The notes beneath the pieces were generated by a model, which saw only the letters and a program-made list of their open reading frames with translations, made no database searches and had not been told where the DNA came from. From a virus, in the IMG/VR virus record IMGVR_UViG_3300002488_000006, positions 19,881 to 40,127 of that record: 20,247 bases of DNA, one strand, 5' to 3'. This document shows, piece by piece, positions 13,124 to 20,247 of this stretch. Position numbers and translations under genes: made by a program. Positions within the stretch are counted from its first letter, which is position 1. Each line of letters begins with the position of its first letter.

Positions 13124-13133
13124 AATTAGCAAT
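13101..13133 (-). promoter_or_regulatory. Candidate Bacteroidetes promoter after the adhesin gene
   Basis: On the minus strand ATTG (13133-13130) is followed by 21 bases and TATATTTG (13108-13101), matching the TTG / TAnnTTTG Flavobacterium consensus. It overlaps the adhesin stop codon and the start of the small basic gene. Initiation a few bases downstream would fall at or near the ATG at 13096, giving a leaderless or near-leaderless transcript. It could supply the small-protein and lysis genes independently of the long adhesin transcript. AT-rich sequence makes chance matches possible. Confidence 0.35.
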
Positions 13134-16100
13134 CTGATAAATATTCTTTCCATAAATCATACAACATTGTAGAACTTAGATCCATTATCGGATAATCTGG
13201 TATATGGAAAGTCATGTTATAATTACTTAATGAACCTCCCAGATAACCAGTAGTAAGCGTAGGATCTCCCCCGCCTGCTGCTCCCATATATGGATTTGGT
13301 ATAGTAACATCTGTTGCTACAAAACACTCGAATCCGTACATTGCTGGAACACCTACATAACTTGCACAATCTATATGACCAGCAAAAGATATATTTGCAT
13401 CAAGACTCTGAGCTCCTACTGCTCCCATTAAGTGATATAAGAAATCTCTTCTTGTATCTACAACAGCTGTTGTACTGTGATCAACCCAAGACCCTGCATA
13501 TATCATTGTTTTTAATGTAACATTGTATGATGATGAAGCAGCATTAGACACTCCGCTTGCATTCCAACCAAACTCATGAAGACTCATAAAGTTATTATAA
13601 TCATTCTTCCATTGTGGCTGTAGCGCATTAGCTGGTCCTGTTCCTATACTGTGCCAGTTAATACCTGGAGCACCTCCCCATAACGCATTTCCACAAGTAC
13701 CTCCCCACTGATTAACATTAGTATTGGTTTCATGGTATCCGCCTGGATTACCTCTAGACTCATCTTGGAATATAATCACAATAGCGTCATTATCTCCTCC
13801 CTCAAATTCATGATAAGGATCACTAAATCCTTCTTGGCCTATAGGATCTTGCCATGGGTTAACCTGATTAAATCCATCTGTGTTATAAGAACCAGGTAAG
13901 ATCATTAACTGTTGTAATAAAGGTCCGTGTACAGCAGCCTCGTATGCTGGTATATTACAATCAAATGGTGCTCCTCCTACTCCATTAACCATTGTGTGTC
14001 CCATAATTGTTCTCTGGTTTGCAGGTAAAGTTCCTGTTGCCATTGGGTTTGCTCCGGCTCCATTTGCTCCCGCATTACCACTCATCGGATAGTTAACCCA
14101 AGCCAACCAATCTTCTGGTGCTGTATTACTACCTGGTGCTGCTGCTCCTGTTCCATTACAATTATTACAAGGACCAAACTGTGACCCGTGAGGCCAAGCC
14201 CCAGGAATAATATATAGATGTCCTGAGTATGTTGGATTATCTGTTTGTATCTGAGCAAAAGCAGGTTCAATTACATCTACTTTAAACTGTACAGCTTTTT
14301 GTAACCTTTCTAGGAATGTACCTCCAAATGTTGAAGTTATATCTAGGAATACATATATATTACTATTACCAAAGCATCCTGTATCACACGTTACTTCTTG
14401 ATCAGTTAATCCAAATGGTACATTACAATCATCACATACATCAGCTACTTTATCAAAGAACTTTTTCATATCTATTTCATCTAAACAATTCTCACATGTA
14501 GTTTCAAATGTTCCTTCTTCTGGTTCGTAACTAGCACAGTCTACAGCACAATCTTGTAAGGTTGGGTATTGTCCTGTTCCTGCATAGTTTGGTATACATC
14601 CAAATGCTGGATCACAGTCATATGTTACTGTTACTCCGGCACATGTTGGATCTGTTGGACATCCGTTGCATGCAGCACAAGCTGCTAAACCTCCATTAGT
14701 ATTATTGAATGCTCCACTTCCATCTCCAGGATCTAGACATTGTGTTACTCCATTATTTACAACACAGTTATATGATTCTACATAACACGGTTGTGTATTC
14801 GTAGATACTGCAGTAGTACAATCAACTAATGTTGCAAAGGTACCTGAACCATCTCCTGGATCAGAACAACTATACTGATTAGTAGATGCACTATAAATAC
14901 AATTATATGATTCTGGTGTACCACAATCTTGTATACATGCCGATACACTAGCGTACTGACCAAGGCCTGTGCCTGGATCATAACATGTTCCTGTAACAGG
15001 GTCACAATCCCATGAGTCTGGATTAGGACAACAAGGTGGATCTGCTAAACATGCCGCTTGGGTTGCAAACCCTGCTCCTGCTGATGGTACACAATTACAT
15101 CCTCCCATTGGATCACATTCCCACATCTGTGAACCTAAACAAGCTGCACATGATGCAAACGATGCAGTTACTGCTACAGCTAAACAAGTACCAGGATCAC
15201 ACATATTATTATCATCACAGTCTATTTCCCAACAAGTTTGAGTGTTTCCATTTATTTGTATTATATCTCCATTTATAAATGCTGTATCTAATGCCGCACT
15301 CTGGCATACATTATTAATAACAATGTTTGGATCTGAACAATCTGTTAATTTATAACAAATACATCCTCCACCAGCTACACAATCTGGACAATTTGGATGA
15401 ACTGTATTTATAACAACTGCTCCTACTGGGTTACATGAACCTGTTCCACATGTACCACATGCCTGAACTTCATAACATTCAGTTGTATTTAATGGTGCTG
15501 GTGGCGCTCCTCCTAGTGTTACTACATCTCCTAATTGACCAGATAGATCATTTGTTACTACAGTACAAGTACTATTACAGAAACAAAGCCCTCCATTTAT
15601 TGCAAAACAAGCTAATGTTCCATCCAGACTAACATAGTTGGCTTGCAACCATGCTTTCATTGTATCATAATCCATAGTAGCATTACCATAACCTGCTGCT
15701 ACTAGTTCAGCTCTAGCTGTAGACCAACTCTGAGCTTGACTCCAATAATAATTAGTCATACCATCTAATGGATCATTCATAGTACCACATTTATAAATAC
15801 GTATTCCTTGCAATCTAGCTATAGCGTTTCCAGTAACATTATCATAACATACACCTGAGCTGCTAGGCAGTGAACCAGTAATTAACTTTTTACTGTTATG
15901 CGTATCAGTTGGAGTATTTACGGAATATTCCTGATAATTTTGTGAATATCCTGCAATAGTAGTAGATATTAAAGTTGCTGCACTACACGAGTCATAACTA
16001 GGGGTACAAGGACATAATTGATAACATGTTTGCGTTGAACTACAACAGTCTACACAAGCTGGATATGTATTTGTAACTACAACAGCGACTGTTCCAGCTG

Positions 16101-19100
16101 CAGGACAAGGATCTGGTCCCGCACAATTTATTTCATAACATGCTCCTGGGTATAGATCTATTTCTACTACAGTTCCTGTACCTATTGTTCCGTCACAATA
16201 TCCTGACATATCTGTAGTAGTAATTATTTGAGCTGGTGCTCCCATACTAGTATCACAACTACATAAATCTAATGTCCAACATGGACTTACTGGATCACAA
16301 TCATCACAATCTCCAGTTGGGTTTCCTGAAACTAAATTTACAGGATTAACTAGTGGAACTCCTGCTGGACATGGGTTTTCTATTTCAACAGTCCAACATC
16401 TTTCTCCTGCTGCATCTCCATTATCCCAAGTTATTATTCCTCCTACATATGCTGAAAGCGCTGGATCATCAGAGTATTCTGTAATATATGTACATCCACT
16501 ACCTAAACATACTCCATCTTGACATGCATAGTTTGGATCATCATTTCCGTAAATACCACATGTAGCTCTTCTATCATATATTCCTTCTGGGCCCATAAGA
16601 CCAGTTGGGAATACAGTACCAAAAGAAGCAGTGGTTGCAAATGGTCCCATCAAAGCATCACCATTAGGAATAACTCCAGCTGGTGTTGGATACATACTAG
16701 GGCATGTAGAATCAGATTGATAACAAGGACAATCACAATTTGCAGCTTGAGGACCAAAGGTTAAGAAATCATGACCATATCCAAATGCGTGTAGTATTTC
16801 GTGTATACCTACTCTGATTAAATCAAATGAATTTGCTACTACGGCATCTCCTGCTTTTCTCCAATCTTCATTTGCATCGAATAATAATAAACCTACATAC
16901 GGAGAAGTTTTAGCAATTCCTGGGTTATTATTATTTATATCTCCTGTAAAGCATAATCCTAATATTCCTGACGCTGCTCCTGTATTTCCACAAGGGCCAT
17001 CTATAGCTCCGAAGTCTGCAAAACCAATTCTAAAGTCTCCTATTCCTGCTACTCCATTACTATCAGTAAAAGATGTTCCATTAGAACTTGCTATAGTATT
17101 TGTTCCCATTGCTGGATCACCTGCAGTATATCCAGTTTCATATCCTAAATCTGTAAAGTTAACAGTTAGGTTAGCTCCATATCCACAATTTGTATTAAAC
17201 ATTCCTTCGAACATAGCTTTAATGTTATTAAACATTGTTACCATTTCTGCTCTAAACTGTACAAATGTAATTTGATATGTTTTATTATAAGGAGCACATG
17301 CACTACTAGTACCTGTTGGATTAGCTGTACCTGGCCCTTGTTCTACAGCTTTAGCTGGTCCAAATCCTGGATACCCTCCTCCTAATGGGAATGTAGCCCC
17401 ATCATTAATAAAGCTATAGCTAAAGTTTACTGTTTGTGCTATACCTGGTGATGCAGTAGTTCCTAATGCTTGTACTGCATTTACTATTGCTTGCCATCTT
17501 TGAGTTACATTTCCAGAAGTACAAGTTGGTGACCAACTCTTTCCGTATGTAACCATAGGAGCAGGCATTGTAGCTGGATCATTTACAGCACATTGATTAT
17601 ATCCTGATGTCCCTCCAGTACATTCACATTCTGTTAATTTATAACAGAAGTTTGGTGGAGGTGCACAATCTGTACAATCAGTATGTGTAGCTGTAATTGT
17701 AGGATCTGGGCTTATAACATTTGCCGGATCACACGGACAAGGCATATTTAACCATACTGGGAATCTTTCTCCCATTCGTCTATTACCAATATCAAATGAT
17801 CCTACTGGAGTTACAAATGTTAATTGATCTTCTATTGATACACCACTAGTAGGATTACTAAGTCTTAATAGAGAATTTGTAACCTGTTGTCCTTGTCCTA
17901 TTGATAATTTATATATATCATCTTGAGTCCATTCTACCATAGATAACCATAAGTTATTATCAGGACCCATAGTCATATCTGTAATTGCAACATTACATCT
18001 AGTTTCATCTGGCGGAGTTCCTCCTAACCATCCACTAGCAGTAGAAGCGTCAGGGAATGTTTTTTGGGAAAGTGTCGTATTTGGGGAAGAACCAACAACA
18101 GGGAAAGAAAACATATATTTATTAGGATCAGTATCAAAGGTATTTCCATCATTAGTTGAACTAGGCGTTACCCATCCATTTGTAATCATTAATTCATTTG
18201 CATAGTCTTTTATTTTCATCACATTTAGACCCCATCCAGATTGAACTAAAGGTAAATTAAATGGATCAGAAGGCTCATAATAATTTGCATATGCGTAAAT
18301 GAGGTAGTCTCCACCCGCACTAAATGCTAGAGTCCTAGGTTTATCCATACCTAAAAATCCAGTATATCCTCCAAATGTAACATTTTGTTCTTGGTAAGAT
18401 CCTCCTAGAATCCAAGAATATGCTCCATTTTGAGCTCCTGCATTCCAGCCATCATTACTGATTAATCCAGTAGTAGCTGTAGCAGATAACGCTGTAGTAG
18501 GGTTTAGCCCCCAAACATGCAATATCCAGTTTTGATTAAATCCAGTTTTTGACTGATTTGTTCTTATTGCTATAATATCATTTGTTTGATTAACCACCAT
18601 CTCTCCTGAAAACTGGATATTGGAAGAATCCCATCTACCAAATGGCATATCTACTGCCATAAAAGGTGTACCTATTCCGGCGTTACTAAATTTAATAGCT
18701 TGAATATTCTGATTATTAAGGTCAGTACCATTAGCCATAGGAGGTATAAAGAAGAAATGCCAGTAAGCTCCTGATCCTATTCCAGTTGTAGTATTAACAC
18801 ACATCATCTCAGCGGCACTTGCTACTAATGTAGTATTAGCCGATGCAGCTAATACTTCTCCTTTTCCACTGTTTAAAGTCATATCAACAATAGACCATTT
18901 TATAGGACCATTATGACATGAATTTTGTATAACATAATATTGTTTCCATACATTTCCTACTAATCCTCCTGCTGCATTTGGTATAACTAATGCTCCTTGA
19001 GCTGGGAATGTTTTTCCATCATCACCTACTGTTCCTACATTTGCATCTCCTTTATGTACAGCTCCCGAATCAAGGTTCATCTTAGTATGAGTTCTATCAT

Positions 19101-20247
19101 ATATATAATGACCGTCAGTATAGAACATTAAATCTCCTGCCGCAAAAGCGTGTCCACCTAGAGTAGCGGCTTCTGTTGCAGAGTGAACTGCTGATCCTCT
19201 AAATGTCCAAGCATCAGCACCTATAGCATTACTAGCGTTGTAAGTAAGCATATCAGACATTCCATTCATATCAGACACAGGTGCTCCCGAACTAAAATCT
19301 ATTCCGAGCCTTTCTCCATAGAACCAATGTGTACCTGCTATTGGATTTCCTGATGTTAAACATTGTTTCCAACATCCTAATTGTCCAGATAATTCTACGA
19401 CATCTGTTCCAATACTATTTCCTAATCCTCCTGATACAGTAATAGTAATACCTGGATCAGTACATGATTCTAGTAGTGTACATTCTAAAGGACATGGATC
19501 AATTAAACAATAAGTACAATCTGGCATATTACCTGTACCTACTGTTGCAGTATTAATTGCATTTACATCTGCGTCTGGTAATACACCTACACAATCAGCA
19601 TTAGCACTTACTGTCCAACACCCTGTATAAATAACACCAGCTACTGTTATATCTGCTTGTACTACTGCTCCAACATCTGCTGCTGTAATTCCTGTTGTTA
19701 CATTAACAATTTGATCTGGTACATAACTAGTTCCACAACAATGTGATACTTTTACACATGTTTGACCTGCAGTCGCACATGCTGCACAATCAGCGTAACT
19801 TGCAGTTATAGCTGCAGTAGGATATGTTACTGTTGTAGGGCCTATACAGCCTACTAATACTTTAAAACAGTTATCTTGAGCTACTCCTCCTATTGTAATA
19901 TCATGGGCATTAGCTGCTCCTATGAAAGGATGAAGTGTTGTTGATGACGCATAATCAACATTAATTATAGCACCGGTAACACAATCTTCAACTCTTAAGT
20001 AATATATACAATTAGCACAATCAACTTGTGTACTTGCTACACTTAAATTAGCTTCAGTTCCTTGTGGGCCTGAAGGATTAAGTTGTACTTCTCTACAGAA
20101 GCATTCTCCAGTTAAGTTAACTACTACTCCTGCTGCAAAATAACCATCTATACCTGGAGTTGATACAGCTGTTGCTCCATTAACTGTATACACAACATTA
20201 CTAGCATCTCCACATTTAGGTAATTTATAGTAAATAGGGTCTGGTAC
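13126..20247 (-). CDS. Giant multidomain Cys-rich adhesin/tail fibre with embedded metalloprotease (5' end beyond window)
   Basis: The frame is open to the right edge, beginning VPDPIYYKLPKC, so 2373 residues are visible and the true N-terminus is missing. An in-frame GTG at 20193 is only an internal codon. In order: Cys-rich modules 1-3 (20247-19507), module 4 split by a propeller-like domain (19359-17743), and module 5 split by a metzincin protease domain (17589-16495). Then come module 6, module 7 split by an unknown domain (16005-15568), module 8, five short Cys-rich repeats (15126-14530) and a vWA-like C-terminal region (about 14500-13129). The dense cysteines suggest an extracellular, disulfide-stabilised virion protein. 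It leads an operon of lysis and tail genes, so a host-contact fibre or adhesin is the best reading. The protease could cleave host surface proteins, glycoprotein layers or itself. Function is inferred from domains. Confidence 0.85.
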   Translation of the reverse strand, partial: VPDPIYYKLPKCGDASNVVYTVNGATAVSTPGIDGYFAAGVVVNLTGECFCREVQLNPSGPQGTEANLSVASTQVDCANCIYYLRVEDCVTGAIINVDYASSTTLHPFIGAANAHDITIGGVAQDNCFKVLVGCIGPTTVTYPTAAITASYADCAACATAGQTCVKVSHCCGTSYVPDQIVNVTTGITAADVGAVVQADITVAGVIYTGCWTVSANADCVGVLPDADVNAINTATVGTGNMPDCTYCLIDPCPLECTLLESCTDPGITITVSGGLGNSIGTDVVELSGQLGCWKQCLTSGNPIAGTHWFYGERLGIDFSSGAPVSDMNGMSDMLTYNASNAIGADAWTFRGSAVHSATEAATLGGHAFAAGDLMFYTDGHYIYDRTHTKMNLDSGAVHKGDANVGTVGDDGKTFPAQGALVIPNAAGGLVGNVWKQYYVIQNSCHNGPIKWSIVDMTLNSGKGEVLAASANTTLVASAAEMMCVNTTTGIGSGAYWHFFFIPPMANGTDLNNQNIQAIKFSNAGIGTPFMAVDMPFGRWDSSNIQFSGEMVVNQTNDIIAIRTNQSKTGFNQNWILHVWGLNPTTALSATATTGLISNDGWNAGAQNGAYSWILGGSYQEQNVTFGGYTGFLGMDKPRTLAFSAGGDYLIYAYANYYEPSDPFNLPLVQSGWGLNVMKIKDYANELMITNGWVTPSSTNDGNTFDTDPNKYMFSFPVVGSSPNTTLSQKTFPDASTASGWLGGTPPDETRCNVAITDMTMGPDNNLWLSMVEWTQDDIYKLSIGQGQQVTNSLLRLSNPTSGVSIEDQLTFVTPVGSFDIGNRRMGERFPVWLNMPCPCDPANVISPDPTITATHTDCTDCAPPPNFCYKLTECECTGGTSGYNQCAVNDPATMPAPMVTYGKSWSPTCTSGNVTQRWQAIVNAVQALGTTASPGIAQTVNFSYSFINDGATFPLGGGYPGFGPAKAVEQGPGTANPTGTSSACAPYNKTYQITFVQFRAEMVTMFNNIKAMFEGMFNTNCGYGANLTVNFTDLGYETGYTAGDPAMGTNTIASSNGTSFTDSNGVAGIGDFRIGFADFGAIDGPCGNTGAASGILGLCFTGDINNNNPGIAKTSPYVGLLLFDANEDWRKAGDAVVANSFDLIRVGIHEILHAFGYGHDFLTFGPQAANCDCPCYQSDSTCPSMYPTPAGVIPNGDALMGPFATTASFGTVFPTGLMGPEGIYDRRATCGIYGNDDPNYACQDGVCLGSGCTYITEYSDDPALSAYVGGIITWDNGDAAGERCWTVEIENPCPAGVPLVNPVNLVSGNPTGDCDDCDPVSPCWTLDLCSCDTSMGAPAQIITTTDMSGYCDGTIGTGTVVEIDLYPGACYEINCAGPDPCPAAGTVAVVVTNTYPACVDCCSSTQTCYQLCPCTPSYDSCSAATLISTTIAGYSQNYQEYSVNTPTDTHNSKKLITGSLPSSSGVCYDNVTGNAIARLQGIRIYKCGTMNDPLDGMTNYYWSQAQSWSTARAELVAAGYGNATMDYDTMKAWLQANYVSLDGTLACFAINGGLCFCNSTCTVVTNDLSGQLGDVVTLGGAPPAPLNTTECYEVQACGTCGTGSCNPVGAVVINTVHPNCPDCVAGGGCICYKLTDCSDPNIVINNVCQSAALDTAFINGDIIQINGNTQTCWEIDCDDNNMCDPGTCLAVAVTASFASCAACLGSQMWECDPMGGCNCVPSAGAGFATQAACLADPPCCPNPDSWDCDPVTGTCYDPGTGLGQYASVSACIQDCGTPESYNCIYSASTNQYSCSDPGDGSGTFATLVDCTTAVSTNTQPCYVESYNCVVNNGVTQCLDPGDGSGAFNNTNGGLAACAACNGCPTDPTCAGVTVTYDCDPAFGCIPNYAGTGQYPTLQDCAVDCASYEPEEGTFETTCENCLDEIDMKKFFDKVADVCDDCNVPFGLTDQEVTCDTGCFGNSNIYVFLDITSTFGGTFLERLQKAVQFKVDVIEPAFAQIQTDNPTYSGHLYIIPGAWPHGSQFGPCNNCNGTGAAAPGSNTAPEDWLAWVNYPMSGNAGANGAGANPMATGTLPANQRTIMGHTMVNGVGGAPFDCNIPAYEAAVHGPLLQQLMILPGSYNTDGFNQVNPWQDPIGQEGFSDPYHEFEGGDNDAIVIIFQDESRGNPGGYHETNTNVNQWGGTCGNALWGGAPGINWHSIGTGPANALQPQWKNDYNNFMSLHEFGWNASGVSNAASSSYNVTLKTMIYAGSWVDHSTTAVVDTRRDFLYHLMGAVGAQSLDANISFAGHIDCASYVGVPAMYGFECFVATDVTIPNPYMGAAGGGDPTLTTGYLGGSLSNYNMTFHIPDYPIMDLSSTMLYDLWKEYLSDC
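13129..14500 (-). other. vWA-like C-terminal region of the adhesin
   Basis: NIYVFLDITST (Asp at 14343-14341) resembles the first strand and MIDAS loop of a von Willebrand A domain, but with DxTxT instead of DxSxS. A helix (FLERLQKAVQFKVDVIEPAF), a strand (GHLYIIPGAWP) and DNDAIVIIFQDES follow, in the order expected of alternating beta/alpha vWA elements. It is preceded by two CxxC pairs and an acidic helix. The protein ends DLWKEYLSDC. Assignment is tentative. Confidence 0.45.
14530..15126 (-). repeat. Five tandem short Cys-rich repeats
   Basis: Units begin at WECDP (15123), WDCDP (15012), YNCIY (14907), YNCVV (14772) and YDCDP (14622), so they are 35-50 residues long. The shared pattern is (W/Y)-x-C-x(5-10)-C-x-(D/P)-x-G-x-G-x-(Y/F)-x-(S/T)-x-x-x-C-x-x-x-C. 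The third and fourth units share SCSDPGDGSG/CLDPGDGSG. Similar Cys/Gly repeats are known from marine phage and Bacteroidetes extracellular proteins. They probably form a flexible, disulfide-rich stalk before the C-terminal domain. Confidence 0.7.
15568..16005 (-). other. Unknown domain inserted in scaffold module 7
   Basis: About 145 residues separate the opening CYQLCPC of module 7 from its continuation CTVVTNDLSGQLGDVVTLGG. The insert has a Ser/Thr-rich start, a central region ARLQGIRIYKCG, then a helical stretch (WSQAQSWSTARAELVAAGYG and MKAWLQANYV) and CFAINGGLCFC. I recognise no family. Confidence 0.5.
16495..17589 (-). other. Metzincin (matrixin-like) zinc protease domain
   Basis: The domain holds HEILHAFGYGH at 16803-16771, the complete HExxHxxGxxH zinc motif of metzincins, followed by Asp. 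About 23 residues later CPSMYPTP has the form of a matrixin Met-turn (x-MYP). A second candidate, GLMGPEG, lies further on. Upstream, TVNFSYSFIND fits the typical 'hxYxF' first strand, and GLLLFDANEDWR precedes the active-site helix. The catalytic Glu and three His ligands are intact, so activity is plausible. No clear propeptide Cys-switch was found. Confidence 0.8.
17743..19359 (-). other. Propeller-like domain resembling Bacteroidetes surface proteins
   Basis: About 540 residues within the adhesin. The opening HWFYGERLGIDFSSGAP, then GDLMFYTDGHYIYDR with HTKM, then QGALVIPN, QYYVIQ and KWSIVDMTLNSGKGEVL, and a later AYWHFFFIP follow a fixed order. I recognise that order from N-terminal regions of Bacteroidetes gliding-motility/T9SS type B-sorted surface proteins (W-x-F/Y-G-x-x-x-G-x-DF, L-x-FYTDG, YSxVDMxxxxGxG). 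In those proteins the region is predicted to be a beta-propeller. Resemblance is by memory, and the fold is inferred. Confidence 0.6.

Follow-up and report, generated by a model that had tools for sequence, protein, structure and literature searches.

In a crAss-like phage, a giant protein that is a putative adhesin contains a domain that we regard, with near certainty, as a matrixin-type metzincin and that is likely an active protease. The domain lies in the window, the term used here for the whole stretch of DNA that was analysed (20,247 nucleotides, bases 19881-40127 of the 65,972-base virus record IMGVR_UViG_3300002488_000006). The positions of the features are collected in Table 1.

Table 1. 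Features of the giant protein in the window (window positions; aa, residues of the giant)
Feature	Position	Strand	Basis or remark
Putative adhesin giant, window part (aa 1292-3664 of the 3,664-aa ORF)	13126..20247	-	extends upstream past the window
Cys-rich module, first half (aa 2159-2176)	17593..17646	-	profile positions 1-16, E 0.03
Matrixin (MMP-type metzincin) domain (aa 2181-2528)	~16537..17580	-	profiles, predicted fold, conserved family
FDANEDWR, equivalent to FDxDExW of matrixins, preceding the active-site helix	16858..16881	-	N237, W240, R241 invariant
Catalytic signature HEILHAFGYGH	16771..16803	-	three zinc-binding His and catalytic Glu
Cys-rich insert, ~37 residues, third His to Met-turn	16660..16770	-	contains CPSMYP (16687-16704)
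Met-turn DALMG	16645..16659	-	Met column of A5 invariant, one row (L017) ambiguous
Cys-rich module, second half (aa 2553-2578)	16387..16464	-	profile positions 17-44, E 0.12
Conserved C-terminal domain (last ~440 aa)	13126..14445	-	possibly vWA-like, DITST at first strand

The catalytic signature and its conservation

The sequence HEILHAFGYGHD is read on the minus strand at positions 16768-16803, within a 3,664-aa ORF of the phage; the codon that follows HEILHAFGYGH (16768-16770) encodes D. The ORF (L003:7-11001, minus strand) is a single uninterrupted frame apart from one ambiguous base just past the end of the window. The motif HExxHxxGxxH occurs exactly once across the six frames of the window, has an expected count of 2.5e-5 in a protein of the giant's composition, and appeared in none of 300 shuffled sequences. 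Together with the residues that are invariant in the family, these values rule out a chance motif.

Conservation was analyzed in a 15-row alignment of the domain (A5), in which the L013 row is a fragment lacking the N-terminal half and the L017 row is ambiguous at M311. The residues H260, E261, H264, G267 and H270 are invariant in 15/15 rows, at identities down to around 31%, and the metzincin active-site motif pointed out in an earlier note on this DNA was borne out. The complete set of invariant positions further comprises D182, N237, W240, R241, M311, G327 and C341. Assuming independent positions, which does not strictly hold for related sequences, the probability of finding all six signature residues within these 12 invariant positions (of 348) would be 4e-10. 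Pairwise comparison of four family members resulted in dN values of 0.15-0.18 and dS values of 0.40-0.63. These values suggest that the domain is under purifying selection, the constraint being only moderate (dN/dS near 0.3-0.4).

The same alignment relocates the Met-turn. The earlier note had assigned it to CPSMYP, but most relatives have Leu, Ile or some other residue in place of its Met; because this Met is not conserved, CPSMYP is not the Met-turn, and the conserved Met sits instead in DALMG. More distant relatives have NALMG, DAIMA, NAIMA or NSIMA at this place, and the ambiguous alignment of L017 leaves SFPMG and ASIMQ as candidates. The third His is thus separated from the Met by 41 residues, as compared to 8 in three bacterial matrixins (L112-L114), and the Cys-rich insert between them could alter or block the cleft. 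The stretch FDANEDWR aligns with FDGDENW of karilysin and with the bacterial matrixins, with D changed to N at one position.

The His residues of the LAH and LHFD motifs are ligands of the structural zinc of MMPs. His is missing at the LAH position in 15/15 rows and at the LHFD position in 14/15 rows. Since the bacterial matrixin L114 also lacks both, this His pair does not define all matrixins. The Cys-rich insert and the loss of the probable structural-zinc His deviate nevertheless from ordinary matrixins and, together with the moderate dN/dS, would fit a module that has retained the fold and the zinc site for stability or binding, without proteolysis. However, the catalytic Glu is invariant in all 15 rows and would not be needed for binding alone, and we consider such a non-catalytic module very unlikely.

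Profile matches and predicted fold

Pfam Peptidase_M10 matched the isolated domain with an E value of 6e-4 and 20.2-20.6 bits, under the cut-off of 24, so the case of no metzincin profile hit raised in the earlier note did not arise; reprolysin_5 scored the isolated domain about equally. When the 12 members of the set A2 were searched at E<=0.1, Peptidase_M10 matched 12/12 (best 3e-7), reprolysin_5 9/12 and reprolysin_2 1/12. A reprolysin was rejected, its models matching more weakly and less widely than the matrixin model, and a weak match to NCBIfam metallo_LGF was set aside since matrixin is stronger and more widespread. Each of seven virus records, the window's own among them, gave exactly one Peptidase_M10 match, above the Pfam cut-off in three of the seven. 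The same search of control genomes gave matches in 9/14, above the cut-off in five; because so many control genomes also match, weak Peptidase_M10 matches alone prove little.

Searching PDB sequences with the A2 profile placed karilysin first (E 0.004), followed by meprin and MMPs, and profile-profile comparison with the bacterial matrixins L112-L114 gave 97.3% over 55 columns. Nothing useful came from phmmer with the single domain sequence against PDB, or from a PHROGs search with the matrixin domain.

The AlphaFold2 model of the domain has a mean pLDDT of 68.8 and a pTM of 0.79, with low confidence at the Cys-rich insert and at the Met-turn. VIA aligned its fold to MT1-MMP with a Z score of 13.9 over 167/174 residues (rmsd 2.6), and the 50 matches listed are MMPs and karilysin. 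Plain Foldseek was weaker than VIA, its best match (E 1e-3) being likewise an MMP. From the match to the MMP fold, the three His residues are predicted to converge, and on this prediction the earlier note's refuting case of a fold that keeps them apart did not arise. Profiles, fold match and conservation together back the matrixin-type metzincin reading.

Position of the domain within the giant

We built a profile of the Cys-rich module from 20 contiguous copies within the family. Complete copies occur at other places in the giant, and the matrixin is flanked by a split copy whose two halves complement each other (Table 1). The same split module surrounds the matrixin in L005 (positions 1-8 and 20-44); neither half was detected in L025, and not all relatives shown have both. 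The matrixin is a guest nested in a Cys-rich module, the argument being the complementarity of halves that are each weak alone. This position between the module halves would display the matrixin outwards. The giant also has a very high Cys content for a product of the bacterial cytoplasm, reaching 24 Cys per 200 residues within its C-terminal third. A likeness of the middle region (17641-19353) to a Bacteroidota extracellular propeller-type domain found no support in the searches, and no such assignment is made.

The conserved C-terminal domain was modeled with a pTM of 0.80. The fold matches listed are mostly of vWA type, with Z scores of at most 7.3 and no chain at Z 8; Foldseek gave E values of 0.8 or worse, and no family match was obtained against Pfam. 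A vWA-like fold is therefore a suggestion, Z being 7.3 or less, and the model points to it as a possibility.

This domain bears on the main rival of host-surface cleavage, namely that the substrate is the giant itself or virion proteins next to it, which the matrixin would cut once at assembly or at host contact and so expose binding domains. CLCAs cut themselves. The embedding of the matrixin in a many-module protein of 3,664 aa would suit self-processing, and a combination of zincin and vWA is described for CLCA proteins (PMC3650047), which the perhaps vWA-like C-terminal domain of the giant would recall. The weakness of the vWA assignment speaks against this parallel, and a processing enzyme need not be in a fibre module. 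We judge self-processing unlikely.

Distribution of the family

The matrixin domain was used in two scans of viral contigs, which yielded 13 loci; among these, L009 and L010 are identical over the domain, and L015 and L016 look like copies. With the C-terminal domain as query, 14 loci were obtained, among them L025 and L026, complete giants that were new and that both have HELGHAFGLGH. The neighbouring exonuclease was used for a further scan, of which the best 80 of 114 relatives were examined: the C-terminal domain of the giant was found in 12 and the matrixin in 10. The two others, L032 and L036, have the C-terminal domain without the matrixin because these loci start downstream of it. No relative of either domain was found in the remaining 68 of these best 80 loci, whose long frames gave no blastp match to the giant; at the giant's place several of them encode another large protein, and many stop short of that place. 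The matrixin is found in every relative that reaches the region, including those located through the C-terminal domain or the collar fibre. Within the loci examined, the matrixin is therefore a fixed part of the giant, and the giant is confined to one lineage.

Other large proteins of around 2,200-2,340 aa, in L076, L075, L088 and similar loci, occupy the giant's place upstream of the exonuclease; that of L076 has repeats of the form GCTDP.A.NY.P.A..DDGSC. Comparison of L020 with L006 (IMGVR_UViG_3300033144_001419) showed the giant in two frames near the C-terminal domain, from a frame break or a sequencing error.

Among protein entries, UniProt A0A516LFR9 (piece 2, 1,279 aa, unnamed) is 76% identical over the domain (Foldseek E 1.6e-45). 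By tblastn, 50,697 annotated phage records contained no match to the matrixin, and annotated phages contained none to the C-terminal domain or the middle region. Neither a plasmid search nor a genome-contig search with A1 gave anything useful. The matches listed from a genome-contig scan with A5 include three short ones, all bacterial proteins with an ordinary matrixin motif.

Phage context and the collagen-like collar fibre

The terminase, portal and head proteins belong to crAss-like families, the portal being 33-37% identical to those of crAss-like phages among the matches listed. On these gene assignments the phage is a member of the crAss-like phages (Crassvirales), and its relatives point to a Bacteroidota host. 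The head-protein and collar-fibre genes precede the giant on its own strand, and genes for virion structural proteins follow it. The terms adhesin and tail protein are suggested by this gene position and by the modules of the giant.

The collar-fibre protein (L003:11700-12584, minus strand), encoded outside the window and two genes upstream of the giant, contains an 11-unit collagen-like Gly-X-Y stretch. Its N-terminus is highly conserved and Cys-rich (MAC..C..GC..P..C.CDC). Collagen-like stretches are common in phage fibres. This one recurs in 10 further loci, the copy pairs L009/L010 and L015/L016 included. Scanning with the collar fibre produced 33 loci, 18 with Gly-X-Y repeats; 12 of the 18 reach the region of the giant, all 12 with the matrixin, and six end too early. 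The 15 loci that match the collar domain only have neither Gly-X-Y repeats nor the matrixin. The L042 record has the repeats.

This co-occurrence, and the collagen-like stretch itself, would agree with a phage collagen/collagenase pair in which the matrixin cuts the phage's own collar fibre. All the loci belong, however, to one lineage, and shared ancestry would explain the linkage. Furthermore, the L017 record keeps the matrixin together with a collar fibre that has no Gly-X-Y run, which weakens the fibre as substrate and the idea of an obligate enzyme-substrate pair; obligate cleavage of the collagen-like fibre is weakened by L149. Cleavage of the own fibre is thus, in our view, highly improbable.

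Proposed role of the matrixin

Phage-tail enzymes are usually viewed as glycan or peptidoglycan cutters, and animals use matrixin-type domains in tissue remodelling. We propose that the matrixin, sitting as a guest in the Cys-rich module of the giant putative adhesin, is carried on the virion, is active with one catalytic zinc, and would cut surface-exposed proteins of the Bacteroidota host at adsorption. It would be the protein-cutting analogue of the glycan depolymerases on the tail fibres of other phages. The best single reading of the sequence is a fibre-mounted, active enzyme that cleaves proteins of the host surface, and we hold it tentatively, a little short of calling it probable. The Cys-rich insert with its possible effect on the cleft, the low model confidence at the insert and the Met-turn, the sub-cut-off Pfam score of the window's domain and the moderate dN/dS count against it. 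Among the substrates that the earlier note had listed (proteinaceous host surface layers, adhesins, the phage's own fibre), a host surface protein is our best guess. The fuller scheme, in which a virion-borne, loop-mounted matrixin serves as a 'protein depolymerase', opening or remodelling the host's proteinaceous surface so that the C-terminal, perhaps vWA-like, end binds, is possible and more tentative still.

Matrixins act on extracellular proteins. The same anatomy would also fit an action on proteins of extracellular matrix, biofilm or debris, aiding spread or release and not adsorption. A Listeria metzincin of phage origin is described as boosting virion release by acting on its partner protein (PMC8235301). 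Nothing, however, sets this reading apart from adsorption, and the phage domain is not a free secreted protein; we take it to be distinctly unlikely.

If host-surface cleavage at adsorption is the role of the matrixin, proteolysis of host surface proteins becomes a testable entry step for a crAss-like lineage. It would offer a phage protease family with a clean catalytic-mutant control, would point to Bacteroidota surface proteins as barriers or receptors, and would mean that some phages may cut host-surface proteins instead of sugars.

Comparison with known metzincins

Animal MMPs (MT1-MMP, MMP-8 and others) are the best structural matches to the model, with Z scores up to 13.9. Their identity to the phage domain is around 20-25%, and the phage domain differs in its 41 residues from third His to Met and in the absence of the LAH His (15/15). 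Karilysin of Tannerella forsythia (PDB 2xs3, 2xs4, 4r3v) is the best PDB sequence match; FDxxENW and HExxHxxGxxH align, and the fold gives a Z score of 13.2. Karilysin and the bacterial matrixins L112-L114 are small separate proteins or N-terminal domains, whereas the phage domain is a guest in a giant protein and has a Cys-rich insert ahead of its Met-turn.

Published phage zincins include CLCA_X, whose zincin-like domains are predicted in long phage proteins, as here, and also in bacteria (PMC3650047). The active site given there is HExxHxxxD, in contrast to the HExxHxxGxxH and Met-turn of the phage matrixin, and CLCA_X was rejected as an assignment on this difference. The Listeria Mtz/Tim pair (PMC8235301) comprises a metzincin of phage origin that cuts a TIMP-like partner and that has, as does the phage matrixin, HExxHxxGxxH/D and a Met-turn; Mtz is secreted as a single-domain enzyme, its partner is a lipoprotein, and it is not part of a giant structural protein. 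Matrixin-like ORFans are reported from metagenomes (PMC4508852). The open literature searched, judged mostly by title and the start of the abstract, yielded no report of a matrixin within the tail or adhesin protein of a phage. Phage zincins are thus already published, while a matrixin inside a phage adhesin is apparently new within that literature. The next best viral structure matches are the MMPs of insect viruses (granuloviruses and a nudivirus; E ~1e-3), which are enzymes of animal viruses unrelated to the phage adhesin.

Other candidate enzymes were seen outside the window. The C-terminal part of a 1,127-aa protein (L002:14957-18340, minus strand) resembles by eye a VanY/M15-type D,D-carboxypeptidase (HVMGQAIDLS, WWHW), a protein for which Pfam gave no match. 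Peptidase M15 and SLT transglycosylase domains are found in L004:6473-6961 and L004:2-1915 (both minus strand), which are probable peptidoglycan enzymes.
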